Assembly: GCF_002952215.1 (NCBI RefSeq)
Contig: NZ_CP022600.1
Location: 2,418,001-2,482,000, forward strand
Direction: 5' to 3'
DNA length: 64,000 bases
Origin: Porphyrobacter sp. HT-58-2
Lineage (GTDB): Bacteria > Pseudomonadota > Alphaproteobacteria > Sphingomonadales > Sphingomonadaceae
Shown here: positions 5,348 through 12,120 of the stretch, piece after piece
Numbering within the stretch: the stretch's first letter is position 1
How the letters are laid out: every line of letters starts with the position of its first letter
Program-made: the position numbers and the translations under genes
The notes under the pieces: model-generated
The model's database searches: none
Told to the model about the DNA's origin: nothing
Seen by the model: only the letters and a program-made list of their open reading frames with translations

Positions 5348-5836
5348 CTAGCGATAGGGTGCGTCGGCTTCAAGGTTGGCCGCGATGGCCCGTTCCCATT
5401 TGTCACCATTCGCAAGCAGCTTGGCCTTGTCGTAAAGCAGCTCCTCGCGGGTTTCGGTCGAATATTCGAAGTTCGGCCCTTCCACGATGGCATCGACCGG
5501 GCAGGCTTCCTGGCAGAAGCCGCAGAAGATGCACTTCGTCATGTCGATGTCGTAGCGGGTGGTGCGGCGGCTGCCATCTTCACGCGGCTCGCTCTCGATG
5601 GTGATCGCCTGCGCGGGGCACACGGCCTCGCACAGCTTGCACGCGATGCAACGTTCCTCGCCGTTGGGATAGCGCCGCAGCGCGTGCTCACCCCGGAAGC
5701 GGGGCGAGAGCGGGGCTTTCTCGAAGGGGTAGTTGATCGTCACCTTGGGCTTGAAGAAATACTTCAGCGTCAAGGCATGCGCCTTGAGGAATTCCCAGAG
5801 GGTGAACGATTTGATGAGGTGGGAGACGGTGGTCAT
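5348..5836 (-). CDS. nuoI: NADH-quinone oxidoreductase subunit I (2x[4Fe-4S])
   Basis: Peripheral-arm ferredoxin-like subunit that carries clusters N6a and N6b and passes electrons to NuoB. The 162-residue protein has two classic eight-iron motifs: [12 protein letters not shown] around residue 62 and [12 protein letters not shown] around residue 101. The N terminus has the amphipathic [15 protein letters not shown] stretch typical of NuoI. The start codon overlaps the stop of the upstream secreted-protein gene in an ATGA, so the two are translationally coupled. Confidence 0.97.
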
Positions 5837-6333
5837 TGGACATTATCCGAATTAATCGGCTGGCAGAACATCTTGTATCGCGAGTTTACGCCGCTGCTAT
5901 CGTGAACGATCAACGCTGACTTTGCGGGCTCGAACTCGACCCTATCCCCGCGAGCATTGGGCTGCTTGAGGACGCGGGCGTTGATGAAAGCATTGAAGCC
6001 GAGCTCCCCACGCGCCACGCCCATCACATTTGACGAAACGACATTGAGAGACCTCTGATCAGGATCATCCCCCGGAAAAGACGCAATAAAGGTCAGACTC
6101 GCGCCATCGAAGTTATGTTCTGAAGCAAGGCCTTCGACACCCGTTATGCCTTCCAAACGAATTTGCACCGGATTTACCGTGTCGTTCAGGCCTTTAATGG
6201 GCACCACGAAAAAGTTGAAGCGCAAGCCATGCCCTTCCTCGGCATCGGGGCCGCACGCATAGCCAACGAGCGGAGCAGCAGGTGTTCCTGCAGCCTGAAG
6301 TGCCAAAGCAACAAGGGCAGACAAGGCCATCAT
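5833..6333 (-). CDS. Secreted protein of unknown function inside the nuo operon (nuoH-nuoI)
   Basis: I do not recognise this 166-residue protein. It begins [21 protein letters not shown], which looks like a signal peptide, so the mature protein should be periplasmic or membrane-anchored. The mature part has no further helix and only two cysteines, one near the start (YACGPD) and one near the end (MFCQP), which could form a disulfide. It overlaps nuoH (ATGA at 6330-6333) and nuoI (ATGA at 5833-5836), good evidence for real translation. Its codons use many more A/T third positions than nuoH or nuoI, suggesting later acquisition. The second ATG at 6330 is an alternative start. Confidence 0.8.
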
Positions 6334-7376
6334 CCGAAATGCCCCGTCGCCATCAGGTAGCCGCTGGTCGCCGCGACAAACAGCAGGCTCATCGGCAGGA
6401 ACACCTTCCACCCGAGGCGCATCAGCTGGTCGTAGCGGTAACGCGGCACGGTCGCCCAGATCCAGCTGAACATGAAGAAGAACACGAAGGTCTTGAGCAG
6501 GAACCAGATGATCCCCGGCACCATGTAAAGCACCGGAATGTCGAGCGGCGGCAGCCACCCGCCCCAGAACAGCAGCGTGTTCAGCGAGCACATCAGCAGG
6601 ATGTTGGCATACTCGCCGAGCCAGAACAGCGCGAAGCTCATCGAGGAATATTCGGTCTGATAGCCCGCGACGAGCTCGCTCTCCGCCTCGGTCAGGTCAA
6701 ACGGCGCGCGCGCGGTTTCCGCGAGGGCCGAGATGAAGAACACCACCCACATCGGGAACAGCAGCGGGTGCACCGCATAGGCGTTGATCAGCCCGAGCCC
6801 GAAGCCCTGCTGCGCGTTCACGATCCCGCTGAGGTTGAACGTGCCCGCGAACAGCACCACGCACACCAGCACGAAGCCAATCGAGACCTCGTAGGAGATC
6901 ATCTGCGCCGAGGCGCGCATCGCCGAGAAGAACGGGTATTTGGAGTTCGACGCCCACCCGCTCATCACCACGCCGTAAACCCCCATCGAGGAGATCGCGA
7001 GGATGTAGAGCAGGCCCACGTTGATGTCGGCCAGCACCATGCCCGCATCGAACGGGATCACCGCCCAGGCCGCCAGCGCGACGGTGAAGGTAATGATCGG
7101 CGCGAGCAGGAAGATGCCCTTGTTCGCGGCCGACGGGATGATGGTTTCCTGAAGGAAAACCTTGAGCCCGTCCGCGAAGCTCTGCAGCAGCCCGAACGGC
7201 CCGACCACATTCGGCCCCCGCCGCATCATGATCGCGCCCAGCACCTTGCGGTCGACATAGATCACCATGGCGACGGAGAACATCACGAGCAGCGAGATCA
7301 CGATGATCCCGGTCAGCGTGGCGACCGTCCAGGCCCATTCGTAGCTGAGGCCGAGCGATTGGAAGAAGGCAGTCAT
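6330..7376 (-). CDS. nuoH: NADH-quinone oxidoreductase subunit H
   Basis: Eight-helix membrane subunit that joins the two arms of complex I and forms much of the quinone chamber. About 348 residues from the ATG at 7376 ([16 protein letters not shown]); an upstream GTG would add an arginine-rich stretch not seen in the family. Signatures are [40 protein letters not shown] and [23 protein letters not shown] sits about 13 bases before the ATG, within the 3' end of the 66-aa gene, which overlaps it by an ATGA. Confidence 0.96.
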
Positions 7377-7576
7377 CAGTCGCAGCCTCCGTCGGCGCCG
7401 CCACCAGAGCAATCATCAAACCCCGAAGCGCCGTAGCTACCACCCGCAGCCGCACCGCTCCCCGCATCGGGACCCGATGCCTTGGAATTTCTCATATACT
7501 TCGGCGCAAACGTTGCCGCGGCCCAAAGAACCGCAAGAAAAGCAAGCGCCCCACCCAAAGTGACAAGGACGTTCAT
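7376..7576 (-). CDS. Small membrane protein inside the nuo operon (nuoG-nuoH), unknown function
   Basis: Unrecognised 66-residue protein. An N-terminal hydrophobic segment ([20 protein letters not shown]) is followed by a short basic stretch and a Gly/Ala/Ser-rich tail ending in [14 protein letters not shown], with two cysteines close to the C terminus. The start overlaps the nuoG stop and the stop overlaps the nuoH start, both as ATGA, so it is almost certainly expressed with complex I. It could be an accessory or assembly factor; that is inference from position only. Confidence 0.72.
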
Positions 7577-9590
7577 TCCGCAGCCTCCTTCACGTCCGCG
7601 CCGTGGAGCAGCTCATCCGAGCAGCGCTGCATCACCTCGCTCGCGCGGGCGATGGGGTTGGTGAGGTAGAAGTCCTTGATCGGGTAGCCCGCAAGCTCGC
7701 CCTCGAACTTGGCGCCGCTGTCCGCCTTGGGCAGCGCACCGTATTCCGCGAGGCCTTCGTCTCCCAGCGCAGGAACGGCGGCGATCATCTTGGCCTGAAG
7801 CTGATCGAAGCTGTCGAAGCCCACGGTCACGCCCAGCGCATCAGCCAGCGCACGCAGGATCGTCCAATCCTCACGCGCGTCACCGCCGGGGCGAAGACCG
7901 CCTTCTCGGCGAACTGCACGCGGCCCTCGGTGTTGACGTAAGTCCCGTCCTTCTCGGCATAGGATGCGCCGGGGAGGATGATGTCGGCGTGATGCGCGCC
8001 CTTGTCGCCGTGGTGGCCAATATAGACCTTGAGGCTCTTGGCGTAGGGCGCATAGTCCATCTCGTCCGCGCCGAGGCTCAGCAGCACCTTGGGCGCGGCG
8101 GTGGCGATATCACTCATCCCGCCCGGAAGCGTGAAGCCGAGCATCAGCGAGGCCATGCGCGCCGCCGAGATGTGCAAGACGTTGAAACCGTTCCAGCCAT
8201 CCTTCACCAGCCCGAACTTGTCCACCAGCTTGAGCGCCGCCGGAAGCGCGCCCTTGGCGAGCGCCGCCGCACCGACGATCACCGCCGGACGCTGGGCCGA
8301 CTTCATGACGTCACCCAATTCCTTGGGCACGCGGTTGAGGATCTTCAGATCGGAGCCGAGGAAGGTCGCCGGATAGGTCGGGTCCCATTCGGGGCCGATG
8401 ATGTAGACCTTGGCCCCCGCCTTCACCGCCTTGCGCAGGCGGACGTTGAGCAGCGCGGCCTCCCATCGGACATTGCTGCCGACGATCAGGATAGCGTCGG
8501 CCGACTCGATGCCGGCGAAGGTGCTGTTGAAATTCACCGCCGCAAGGTTCGACACGTCATAGGTCATGCCAGTCTGGCGCGCTTCGGTGAGGTTCGACCC
8601 GCAGGCGTTGACCAACGCCTTGGCGGCGAACATCGTCTCGGCATCGAGCAGATCACCCGCGACCGCCGCAATGCTGGCCTTGTCGCCTTCAAGAGCGGAG
8701 GCGATCATGCCGAAAGCCTCGGCCCAATCGGAAGGCTGCAACCGGCCATCGCGGCGCACCCAAACGCGGTCGAGGCGGCGCTTGGTGAGGCCGTCGACCT
8801 GATAGCGGCCCTTGTCGCTCAGCCACTCCTCGTTGACGTCGTCATTGACGCGCGGCAGCGCGCGCATCACTTCGCGGCCCTTGGAATGGAGCGTGATGTT
8901 GGCGCCCACCGCGTCCGAGACGTCGATGCTCAGCGTCTTCTTCAGCTCCCACGGGCGCGCCTCGAAAGCATAGGGCCGCGAGGTCAACGCGCCGACCGGG
9001 CACAGGTCGATCACATTCGCCGACAATTCATGCGCCGCCGCCTGTTCCAGATAGGTGGTGATCTGCATATCCTCGCCGCGATACAGCGCGCCGATTTCGT
9101 CCACGCCGGCGATCTCCTCGGAGAACCGCACGCAGCGGGTGCAGTGGATGCAGCGGGTCATGATCGTCTTGATCAGCGGGCCCATGTACTTCTCGGTCAC
9201 CGCGCGCTTGTTCTCGTGATAGCGCGAGCCGCCGCGGCCATAGGCGACCGCCTGATCCTGAAGATCGCACTCGCCGCCCTGATCGCAGATCGGGCAATCG
9301 AGCGGGTGGTTGATGAGCAGGAACTCCATCACCCCCTCGCGGGCCTTCTTGACCATCGGGCTATCGGTGCGGATTTCCTGGCCTTCGCTGGCGGGCAGCG
9401 CGCAGGAAGCCTGCGGCTTCGGCGGCCCGGGCTTCACCTCGACAAGGCACATGCGGCAATTGCCCGCAATGCTGAGGCGTTCGTGATAGCAGAAACGCGG
9501 GATTTCCTTCCCCGCCAGCTCGCACGCCTGAAGCACAGTCGCGCCCGCGGGGACCTCGATTTCCTGACCGTCTACGGTGACCTTCGGCAT
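7573..9590 (-). CDS. nuoG: NADH-quinone oxidoreductase subunit G, reading frame broken by a 1-base deletion
   Basis: Large iron-sulfur subunit of the complex I peripheral arm. The first 560 or so residues are intact: a [2Fe-2S] ferredoxin domain (FCYHERLSIAGNCRMCLVEV), the HxxxC cluster region with CPICDQGGECDLQD, and CIHCTRCVRFSEE for the [4Fe-4S] cluster, followed by the molybdopterin-oxidoreductase-like domain. Near 7888-7891 one C is missing from a C run on the coding strand. The frame ends early with unrelated residues, and the true C terminus (about 85 residues) continues in the next frame to the stop at 7573. Restoring one base gives 672 residues, the normal length. The start overlaps the nuoF stop as TAATG. 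Confidence 0.93.
7888..7891 (-). other. Frameshift site in nuoG (one base missing in GGGG/CCCC run)
   Basis: On the coding strand GCCCCGGCGGTGACGCG should read GCCCCCGGCGGTGAC to keep the family sequence APGGDAREDWTILRALADALGV. Adding one C in the run at 7888-7891 rejoins the two frames without a gap. The same kind of lesion occurs in rne and zapE, which favours a sequence error over a mutation. Confidence 0.85.
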
Positions 9591-10882
9591 TACTCGGCTG
9601 CCTCTTGGAATTGCGCGTTATGTTCGTTGATCCGCCGCTCAAGCTCGGGGCGGAAGTGGCGGATGAGGCCTTGGATCGGCCATGCCGCCGCATCGCCGAG
9701 CGCGCAGATGGTGTGGCCTTCGACCTGCTTGGTGACTTCCTGCAGCATGTCGATTTCCTCGATGGCTGCGTCCCCGGTGCGCAGGCGCTCCATCATGCGC
9801 CACATCCAGCCCGTGCCTTCGCGGCAGGGGGTGCACTGGCCGCAGCTTTCGTGCTTGTAGAAATAGCTGAGGCGGCTGATCGCGCGGACGATGTCGGTCG
9901 ACTTGTCCATGACGATGACCGCCGCGGTGCCGAGGCCCGAGCCCAGTTCCTTGAGCCCGTCGAAATCCATCGGCGCGTTGCGGATCTGCGCGGCAGGCAC
10001 CAGCGGGACCGAGGAACCGCCCGGGATCACCGCCAGCAGATTATCCCACCCGCCGCGAATGCCGCCGCAATGCTTCTCGATCAGCTCCTCGAACGGGATG
10101 CTCATCGATTCCTCGACGACGCAGGGCTTGTTCACATGACCCGAGATCTGGAACAGCTTGGTGCCCTTGTTATTCTCGCGCCCGAAGCTGCTGAACCACG
10201 AGGCCCCGCGCCGCAGGATCGTCGGCGCGACCGCAATGCTCTCGACGTTGTTGACCGTGGTCGGGCAGCCATAGAGCCCCGCACCCGCCGGGAACGGGGG
10301 CTTGAGGCGCGGCTGGCCCTTCTTGCCTTCGAGGCTCTCGATCATCGCGGTTTCTTCGCCGCAGATGTAAGCGCCCGCGCCGCGATGCATGAAAACATCG
10401 AAATCATAGCCCGACTTGCAGGCGTTCTTGCCGATGAAACCGGCCGCATAGGCCTCGTCGATCGCCTTCTGGAGCGTCTCGGCCTCGCGGATATATTCGC
10501 CGCGAATGTAGATATAGGCCGCCCGCGCACGCATCGCGAAACCGGCGACCAGCGCGCCTTCGACTAGCTTGTGCGGATCATGGCGGATGATCTCGCGGTC
10601 CTTGCAGCTGCCGGGCTCGGATTCGTCGGCGTTGATGACGAGGAAGCTCGGGCGACCGTCGCGCGATTCCTTGGGCATGAACGACCACTTCAGCCCTGTG
10701 GGGAAGCCCGCCCCGCCCCGCCCGCGCAGGCCGCTGGACTTGATTTCCTCGATGATCGCATCCTGCCCGCGTGCGAGCAGCGCCTTGGTGTTGTCCCAAT
10801 CCCCGCGCGCCTGCGCGGCCTTGAGGCTCCAGTCCTGGAACCCGTAGAGGTTGGTGAAGATGCGGTCCTTGTCAGCCAGCAT
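9590..10882 (-). CDS. nuoF: NADH-quinone oxidoreductase subunit F (FMN/NADH-binding)
   Basis: Flavoprotein subunit where NADH is oxidised and electrons enter the iron-sulfur chain. About 430 residues. The NADH/FMN region is [16 protein letters not shown], followed by [19 protein letters not shown], and the N3 [4Fe-4S] ligands are in [15 protein letters not shown] plus [14 protein letters not shown] prefer the ATG at 10882 (TGATG overlap with the 58-aa gene, AAGGGA eight bases upstream); a GTG at 10885 is the alternative. Confidence 0.97.
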
Positions 10883-11058
10883 CACTGCATTCCCTTGTTC
10901 TTTGCACGCTTGATGCGCACCAGCGAAATCACCTGAAACACGAGGCCAAGGCCCATCACGATCACACCCATCTCGTAAGGCCCGGTCATGGTCAGCACCG
11001 CGCCCAGCGCAAAGCCGGTGAGGCCGAGGATCGCAAACAGGAGCGTCAGCGGGTTCAT
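10882..11058 (-). CDS. 58-aa membrane microprotein inside the nuo operon (nuoE-nuoF)
   Basis: Unrecognised. The sequence starts [19 protein letters not shown] and ends in a basic tail [12 protein letters not shown], with two hydrophobic helices separated by TGPYEMG, so a two-helix hairpin in the inner membrane with a positively charged cytoplasmic end is likely. Its ATG overlaps the stop of the 47-aa gene (ATGA) and its stop overlaps the nuoF start (TGATG). This tight coupling on both sides, rather than any homology, is why I call it a gene. Confidence 0.7.
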
Positions 11059-11198
11059 CCGATCGCTCCCTGCTGCCACAACCCGGCCAGCACCGCGATG
11101 ATGAGCAGGATCACGCCGACGCGGATCAGGCCCATAAGCAGCTTGTAGGCGATGAAGCCCAGCAGCAGCGCGCCGAGGAGGGTGACGACTTCGGTCAC
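11055..11198 (-). CDS. 47-aa membrane microprotein inside the nuo operon (nuoE-nuoF)
   Basis: A very short gene starting with GTG at 11198, immediately after the nuoE stop (TAAGTG), and ending in an ATGA overlap with the next microprotein gene. The product ([19 protein letters not shown], then [20 protein letters not shown], then LWQQGAIG) is nearly all hydrophobic, enough for one long or two short helices. It fills exactly the space between nuoE and the 58-aa gene, leaving no untranslated base. No function can be assigned. Confidence 0.6.
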
Positions 11199-11867
11199 TT
11201 ACCAATCACCCCGGTAGTCGTGGTTCTCGGTGACCATCTCCTTGAGCGTGGTCGGCCCGCCCGCAGGCTCGGAGGTGTGACGGCCGGGCTCCTGCGTCCC
11301 GGTCTTCGGCTGCTGGCCGGCGGCCAGCGCATCAAGCACCGCGTCGAGGCGCTCCGGCGTCAGATCCTCGTAGTTGTCGTCGTTGATCTGGACCATCGGC
11401 GCGGTGGCGCAATTGCCCATGCATTCGACTTCGGTGAGGGTCCAGAGACCATCGGCCGAGACCCCACCCTTCACCATCCCGCGCTTCTTGCAAGCGGTCA
11501 TGATGTCGTCGGAGCCGCGCAGCATGCAGGGCGTGGTGCCGCACACCTGCACGTGGAATTTGCCGACGGGCTTCAGGTTATACATGAAGTAGAAGCTGGC
11601 GACTTCGAGCACGCGGATCACCGGCATGTCGAGATAGGCCGCGACATACTCGATCACCGGCAGCGGCAGCCACCCCTGCGTATCGGTCTCCGCGCCGACC
11701 TGCCGCTGGGCGAGATCGAGCAGCGGCATCACCGCCGAGCGCTGACGCCCCTCGGGATACTTCGCGATGTGCCAGTCGGCGGTTTTCTTGTTCTCCGGCG
11801 TCCACGCGAAGCCGCCCCAGCGGGCGCGCAGTTCGGGGGTATCGGGAGCGGGGGTACGGTCAGCCAT
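11199..11867 (-). CDS. nuoE: NADH-quinone oxidoreductase subunit E ([2Fe-2S] N1a)
   Basis: Thioredoxin-fold subunit partnering NuoF. The start [17 protein letters not shown] at 11867 fits; a longer open frame upstream overlaps the 86-aa gene and looks random. The cluster ligands are in VCGTTPCMLRGSDD and VECMGNCATAP. At 222 residues it carries a C-terminal tail of about 50 residues (Pro/Gly/Thr-rich, ending ENHDYRGDW) beyond the core, seen in some alphaproteobacterial NuoE. Its 5' end overlaps the preceding small gene by eight bases. Confidence 0.95.
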   Translation of the reverse strand: MADRTPAPDTPELRARWGGFAWTPENKKTADWHIAKYPEGRQRSAVMPLLDLAQRQVGAETDTQGWLPLPVIEYVAAYLDMPVIRVLEVASFYFMYNLKPVGKFHVQVCGTTPCMLRGSDDIMTACKKRGMVKGGVSADGLWTLTEVECMGNCATAPMVQINDDNYEDLTPERLDAVLDALAAGQQPKTGTQEPGRHTSEPAGGPTTLKEMVTENHDYRGDW

Positions 11868-12120
11868 TGGGGATTTCCATGTTCTTGCGCTCGGCCCGGC
11901 GCGCTTCGATCCGGGGATAGGCAAAGCCCCACCACAGCACATTCCACAGCACAACGGGCACGAAACCCAGCCATTCGGACAGCGGCAATTCGACCGGCAG
12001 TTTGATGAACCCGGCATAATCGGCACAGGTCGCCGCGAACCACGCCGCGCTCAAGACCGAAATCACGGTCTTCCAGCGCGTCGAGAACGCATCGGCCCGG
12101 TCGATCAGGTCGTCGATCAC
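11860..12120 (-). CDS. 86-aa membrane protein inside the nuo operon (nuoD-nuoE), unknown function
   Basis: Not recognised. Starts at a GTG (12120) overlapping the nuoD stop as GTGA and ends eight bases inside nuoE. The first 20 residues are charged ([16 protein letters not shown]). Two hydrophobic stretches follow ([20 protein letters not shown] and [20 protein letters not shown]), then a basic tail [11 protein letters not shown]. This reads as a two-helix inner-membrane protein with both ends cytoplasmic. Coupled translation with nuoD and nuoE supports expression. Confidence 0.72.

Follow-up and report, generated by a model that had tools for sequence, protein, structure and literature searches.

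The window analysed here, a 64,000-nucleotide (nt) stretch of Porphyrobacter sp. HT-58-2 (NZ_CP022600.1, positions 2,418,001 to 2,482,000), carries the nuo operon for respiratory complex I on its minus strand; the genome is one contig of 3.28 Mb. Five extra open reading frames (ORFs) of 86, 47, 58, 66 and 166 amino acids (aa) lie between the subunit genes of this operon, where a preceding sequence-only reading had located them. We compared the joints between neighbouring nuo genes, written D/E for nuoD and nuoE and so on, with those of relatives. The middle joints D/E, E/F, F/G, G/H and H/I, and less often B/C, are probably insertion hotspots in the genus and, less strongly, in other Sphingomonadales, and we infer that they favour translated inserts. 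The content of the joints differs among close relatives while the nuo genes stay. The earlier proposal that all five ORFs encode accessory subunits of complex I was only partly supported, as three of them are missing from nearly all close relatives. Given their retention in the genus and their location at nuo, an accessory or assembly role for complex I is plausible for the 58- and 47-aa proteins; nothing shows the 86-, 66- and 166-aa genes to be anything beyond passengers.

Occupancy and content of the nuo joints

nuoI was detected in 75 of 81 genus genomes, including that of the window. Sixty nuo regions were taken, one that was too short was removed and the window was added, giving a genus set of 60 loci; some of the genomes counted (81 or 114) are incomplete. 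A joint was counted as filled when its gap was at least 60 nt, and an insert as tiled when ORFs covered it wholly with each seam between −14 and +15. Dinucleotide-shuffled versions of the same inserts served as the null for tiling.

The six joints were filled in 194 of 353 cases (B/C 13/58, D/E 48/58, E/F 55/58, F/G 29/59, G/H 29/60 and H/I 20/60). The counts at other joints were 2/58 for A/B, 1/58 for C/D, 4/60 for J/K and 0/58 for both K/L and L/M. ORFs tiled 190 of the 194 inserts, compared with 798 of 3880 shuffles (20.6%); the untiled inserts were those of L107 (D/E), L119 and L134 (both F/G) and L140 (H/I). As a negative control, the I/J gap, which was at least 60 nt in 32 loci, was tiled in 0/32, indicating that the tiling test is not passed by just any gap. 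The filled and tiled counts retain D/E of L132, probably a broken nuoD and not an insert: nuoD is apparently interrupted there, and the ORF past its stop is the rest of nuoD.

We compared nuo with two other operons only, in the same 19 relatives, the genes of both being picked automatically by conservation. The curated nuo genes, without I/J, gave 63 filled and 62 tiled joints among 209 places. The corresponding numbers were 7 and 4 among 188 places for the dcw cell-division cluster (10 coupled joints) and 12 and 6 among 57 places for the atp operon (3 coupled joints). Filling in nuo was clearly above that in dcw and, by less, above that in atp. Close relatives had different genes inside the same pair of core genes, which marks a hotspot as judged against these two operons. 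Separately, we observed coupled inserts in the atp operon of relatives (L173–L191), such as a small gene at the same gene pair in two of them.

Outside the genus, with loci assigned by record title, 37 other Sphingomonadales loci were filled at D/E in 24/32, E/F in 19/32, F/G in 19/33, G/H in 7/36 and H/I in 7/37, and at B/C and C/D in 4/31 each. For 40 other alphaproteobacterial loci, the counts were D/E 3/29, E/F 1/30, F/G 6/33, G/H 8/33 and H/I 0/40.

Phmmer linkage of 371 insert ORFs from the 60 genus loci and 34 other Sphingomonadales loci gave 36 families and 109 singletons, some of the latter being repeats or doubtful ORFs. Thirty-one of the 36 families were restricted to one joint, including the five largest (E/F 71/71, E/F 32/32, F/G 26/26, D/E 23/23 and G/H 11/11). 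Of the five found at several joints, four were repeat-like by eye and one was not; three further repeat-like clusters were confined to one joint. Among ten family representatives searched against Pfam, one was SnoaL-like, one matched DUF3291, one matched TauE below the cut-off and seven had no match. At F/G of L015, about 2.7 kb holds four consecutive ORFs of 217–264 aa, apparently divergent copies of one secreted type.

Several short inserts looked palindromic by eye, and two inserts were dispersed repeats. The F/G insert of L092 had 56 matches in its own genome (G001), none in that of the window and 24 and 15 in two further genomes, although its palindromy counts some places twice. The G/H insert of L141 had 26 matches in its own genome (G056). 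Both repeats form ORFs whose overlaps are of the type seen in other inserts, so that the tight spacing to which the sequence-only reading appealed is no proof of a subunit. A third candidate, at J/K of L131, was not confirmed as a dispersed repeat: its own genome gave 4 matches, and three of these were fragments of some 25 nt.

In four of 286 inserts, the resident gene begins with a copy of the first 36–43 nt of the downstream core gene, nuoE in L098 and L122 and nuoG in L135 and L026. L148 is a fifth case, seen by eye. These copied 5′ ends look like insertion marks. Nine of the 13 matches between inserts and core genes were discarded as short and lying elsewhere in the core genes.

Turnover was evaluated on a FastTree phylogeny of concatenated nuo core proteins from 58 loci, that is, a tree of the nuo core itself. 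The presence changes, with the shuffled mean, were 18 vs 16.6 at H/I (20 presences), 17 vs 19.3 at G/H, 2 vs 3.0 at E/F, 8 vs 9.4 at D/E, 15 vs 19.4 at F/G and 6 vs 11.8 at B/C. Shuffles reached values as low as those observed in 32/200 at G/H, 23/200 at D/E, 3/200 at F/G and 0/200 at B/C. On the tree, presence at H/I and the distributions of three families (SnoaL, the secreted one at F/G and the main one at G/H) were indistinguishable from random. The main family at B/C tracked the tree, as did the 47-aa gene, with 3 changes vs 19.4 in shuffles. Low synonymous divergence of residents relative to core genes (0.13 vs 0.20–0.36 for G/H of L099/L101; 0.45 vs 0.57–0.58 for F/G of L137/L139) suggests transfer in these two pairs. 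Loss and exchange are both possible.

Seams and a proposed route of insertion

The seams of the window are as follows.

12117–12120, minus strand: GTGA, the nuoD stop containing the start of the next gene; in relatives it occurs at filled D/E joints, not at empty ones
11860–11867, minus strand: ATGGCTGA, an 8-base overlap with a stop for the upstream ORF just after the nuoE start; present at filled and empty D/E joints
11201–11196, minus strand: TAAGTG after nuoE
11055–11058, minus strand: ATGA, overlap of the 47- and 58-aa ORFs
10882 (shared base), minus strand: TGATG into nuoF
7573–7576, minus strand: ATGA, nuoG and the 66-aa ORF
6330–6333, minus strand: ATGA, nuoH and the 166-aa ORF
5833–5836, minus strand: ATGA, the 166-aa ORF and nuoI

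All but one of the overlaps agreed with the sequence-only reading; the junction of the 66-aa ORF with nuoH is TGATG with one shared base (7376), and not ATGA as it had listed. These seams support well its view that the five ORFs are translated together with the subunits, and on this basis co-translation is very likely. Promoter and terminator scans of the window's nuo operon gave nothing above shuffles.

Similar seams recur across the genus, with spacings of −4, −8 and −1 at D/E and at F/G and mostly −4 at G/H and H/I; the −8 seam at D/E was seen 34 times. nuoE starts with ATGGCTGA or GTGGCTGA in 57/58 loci, and nuoG with ATGCCTAA or GTGCCTAA in 45/60, the window having ATGCCGAA. nuoH and nuoI start with ATGA or GTGA in nearly all loci. 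The built-in downstream stop is also found in empty joints (D/E 10/10, G/H 31/31 and F/G 17/30). At empty G/H and H/I joints, the upstream gene already ends in ATGA or GTGA (31/31 and 37/40), and empty D/E and F/G joints end in TAA or TAG (10/10 and 30/30). We also observed that nuoD and nuoF stop with TAA or TAG at 40/40 empty joints and with TGA at 73/77 filled ones, a switch that is a possible clue to how inserts arrive.

We propose that these signals form a socket, of which ATGGCTGA at nuoE would be the 3′ half. In the downstream core genes, an out-of-frame stop coincides with the start or closely follows it, namely ATGGCTGA at nuoE, ATGCCTAA at nuoG in many relatives and ATGA at nuoH and nuoI. 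Because these stops are present even in empty joints, an arriving open frame would end in place, and incoming DNA that is open in the linking frame may become a coupled gene. The upstream half, a stop containing a start, is already present in empty joints at G/H and H/I. DNA closed in the linking frame would probably be selected against, as the next subunit would lose its coupling. Ribosomes presumably use the seam signals in this way. Recombination within the conserved nuo genes on either side may carry residents between species, and repeated loss would be allowed as well. The 58- and 47-aa membrane proteins are long-term residents that probably aid the assembly or stability of complex I, and the 86-, 66- and 166-aa genes would be sporadic residents whose link to complex I may be co-expression only, judging from the operon.

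The five genes of the window

The five ORFs are listed below.

11860–12120, minus strand: 86-aa ORF at D/E, a sporadic resident
11055–11198, minus strand: 47-aa hydrophobic ORF at E/F with a GTG start, following the clade in its presence
10882–11058, minus strand: 58-aa ORF at E/F with two hydrophobic helices, the last before nuoF and the most widely kept of the five
7376–7576, minus strand: 66-aa ORF at G/H with one hydrophobic helix and a tail containing Gly and Cys, sporadic
5833–6333, minus strand: 166-aa ORF at H/I, with two cysteines and a start that resembles a signal peptide by eye

Absence from close relatives that keep nuo, which the sequence-only reading had named as evidence against its proposal, was found for the 86-, 66- and 166-aa genes, whereas the 58- and 47-aa genes are retained. 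The 58-aa gene was found in 63 of 81 genomes, and 64 of its 66 matches lay no more than 9 kb from nuoI; of the other two, the match in G041 was placed at nuo from its flanking sequence, and that in G068 was on a separate contig, so that its place could not be told. The 47-aa gene was found in 38/81 genomes, with 35 of 38 matches no more than 9 kb from nuoI and three on separate contigs of fragmented assemblies (G041 at nuo, two unplaced). Wherever place could be told, neither gene had a copy away from nuo.

The remaining three genes were sporadic. The 86-aa gene had matches in 14 of 114 genomes, seven of them at D/E of nuo (the window, L145–L149 and L137) and seven weaker ones at other or untold places. 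Matches to the 66-aa gene were found in 7/114 genomes. Those of L193 and L195 separate nuoG from nuoH, that of L194 precedes nuoH, that of G050 lies about 1.5 kb from nuoI, and two further matches were unplaced. The 166-aa gene had no relative by sequence, being found in its own genome only (1/114 genus genomes). The corresponding joints of relatives are occupied by other genes or by repeats, or have no insert. None of the five is a repeat, as each had one match in its own genome by protein or profile search.

Simple hydropathy agreed with the sequence-only reading that the 47-, 58- and 66-aa proteins span the membrane; the 86-aa protein, also named there, fell under the cut-off used. The secreted protein of that reading corresponds to the 166-aa ORF, whose signal-peptide-like start was judged by eye. 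Pfam and NCBIfam gave no family above the cut-off for any of the five proteins. Profile searches of the PDB matched no chain for the 58-aa protein and gave a single weak light-harvesting match (E 0.33) for the 47-aa protein. Frame-1 codon usage of the 86-, 47- and 58-aa genes resembled that of the core nuo genes, and that of the 66- and 166-aa genes was above shuffles and below core. Third-position guanine plus cytosine content was 0.567 and 0.593 for the 66- and 166-aa genes, respectively, and 0.78–0.92 for core genes.

The median ratio of nonsynonymous to synonymous substitution (dN/dS) was 0.49 for the 47-aa gene, 0.36 for the 58-aa gene, 0.21 for the 86-aa gene (3 pairs) and 0.175 for the 66-aa gene (1 pair), compared with 0.04–0.12 for NuoD, E, H and I, 0.12 for the SnoaL family and 0.47 for three repeat-derived ORFs.

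At H/I of 21 loci, we observed proteins of 125–204 aa with very low identity and two cysteines, one early and the other late; they may form a single secreted family that evolves very fast. In their alignment (A1), the late cysteine was present in 21/21 proteins and the early cysteine in 90% or more, both of which the aligner could have forced. Leave-one-out profiles ranked 8 of 22 proteins first against 49 proteins of other joints. When the competitors were 220 shuffles that kept the first 22 residues, only 3 of 22 reached the top five, and the 166-aa protein of the window ranked 29th. Pfam gave no family for the 21 H/I proteins searched (21 of the 22 that were profile-tested; L030 was omitted).

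The nuoG gene of the window is split, which the sequence-only reading had missed.

7827–9590, minus strand: first part of nuoG, 587 aa, ended early by a frameshift
7573–7830, minus strand: C-terminal part of nuoG in another frame, 85 aa (PF09326, 4.1e-11), with a GTGA overlap with the first part

nuoG runs in one frame in 59/59 other genus loci and is unsplit in 131/131 other loci, of which at least three genomes were counted twice (L003/L089, L004/L085 and L005/L103). The frameshift may be a mutation or a sequencing error.

Alternative explanations and known systems

Several results weigh against the insertion-hotspot interpretation. The ten repeat-like single-ORF inserts were all tiled (10/10, with 5.3 expected by chance), in a set chosen after the ORFs had been seen. 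Automatic gene choice for nuo reduced the counts to 29 filled and 26 tiled among 152 places (8 coupled joints), in a gene set in which one "insert" joint was nuoK itself and D/E was mis-called. The atp operon takes inserts too. An upstream start-containing stop was found in 47/48 filled D/E and 26/29 filled F/G joints but in 0/10 and 0/30 empty ones; an upstream start signal that always pre-exists was rejected for these two joints, where the signal would have been brought by the insert or selected afterwards. Presence at F/G and B/C partly tracks the tree. Synonymous differences per site of the residents are mostly as high as those of core genes, so that recent exchange is suggested in two pairs only. 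The dN/dS of the 47-aa gene (0.49) is not below that of the repeat-derived ORFs (0.47), and selection on this peptide is thus not shown by dN/dS; its steady length, its place and its clade-following presence are the better argument. Finally, the coupling is read from sequence alone.

A wider form of the hotspot interpretation would treat the nuo joints of Sphingomonadales as a gene nursery, in which the built-in stops and the start-containing stops make co-translated genes of incoming open DNA, including mobile palindromic repeats, and some of these (such as 58 and 47 aa) are promoted to real partners of complex I. We put this forward as a tentative possibility. If true, the passage from passenger to accessory subunit would be visible within one genus.

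Alternatively, an ancestral cluster with many extra genes may have lost them independently, the joints being no special landing places. The mostly core-like divergence of residents and the confinement of protein families to one joint would fit such losses, which would, however, require a very gene-rich ancestor to account for 36 families and 109 singletons. The dispersed repeats at the joints are gains, and the nuoE and nuoG 5′ copies resemble traces of insertion. We regard this explanation as unlikely.

The five proteins may instead all be lineage-specific supernumerary subunits or assembly factors of complex I. They share its operon with overlaps and are mostly small and hydrophobic, the 86- and 66-aa genes have low dN/dS (from few pairs), and the 58- and 47-aa genes occur at nuo only, where they can be placed. 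It is very unlikely that this applies to all five, given that three are absent from nearly all close relatives and that elsewhere the same joints hold SnoaL-like or DUF3291 proteins or repeats. That the inserts are translational spacers, which keep ribosomes flowing and set subunit ratios with the peptide irrelevant, would agree with the like seams of repeat-derived ORFs and the unrelated contents at one joint, but is highly improbable in view of families with dN/dS well below 1 (SnoaL 0.12, 86 aa 0.21) and of joints that are empty in many loci.

It has long been asked how complex I acquires additional subunits. If the insertion-hotspot interpretation is true, the range found at the same operon positions across dozens of species, from empty joints through repeat-derived ORFs and sporadic residents to residents confined to nuo, would make subunit gain testable. 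It also warns that tight start and stop spacing in an operon is no proof that a small ORF serves the complex. A search of open-licence literature gave, among the matches listed, no paper on insertion hotspots within the nuo operon.

Rickettsia palindromic elements are palindromic repeats within protein-coding sequence. They resemble the nuo repeats in being mobile palindromic DNA tolerated in translated sequence, whereas a nuo repeat forms its own small ORF between coupled genes; the five genes of the window are not repeats. Unidentified reading frames also occur among the nqo/nuo genes of Paracoccus denitrificans and Rhodobacter capsulatus, and are likewise non-subunit ORFs between alphaproteobacterial nuo genes. 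Beyond this likeness, the present joints have multi-species turnover, repeats and coupled seams.

Paracoccus complex I has the mitochondrial-type extra subunits NDUFS4, NDUFS6 and NDUFA12 (PMC11522691, PMC8115037) and a PIMT-like subunit (PMC11522691), the latter showing that a co-opted protein can become a complex I subunit. Like these, the nuo residents would be extra proteins of an alphaproteobacterial complex I, here known from their genes; the five of the window match no Pfam family over the cut-off. Translational coupling can proceed by termination-reinitiation at ATGA and TGATG overlaps (PMC6728339). The overlap signals in nuo are identical, as read from the DNA, but here they surround genes that vary among close relatives. 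Chromosomal hotspots of horizontal gene transfer (PMC5635113) show fast gene turnover at few places. The nuo joints likewise concentrate gene turnover at few sites, but these sites are joints inside one respiratory operon, and nearly all of their residents have stop/start overlaps or very short seams on both sides.

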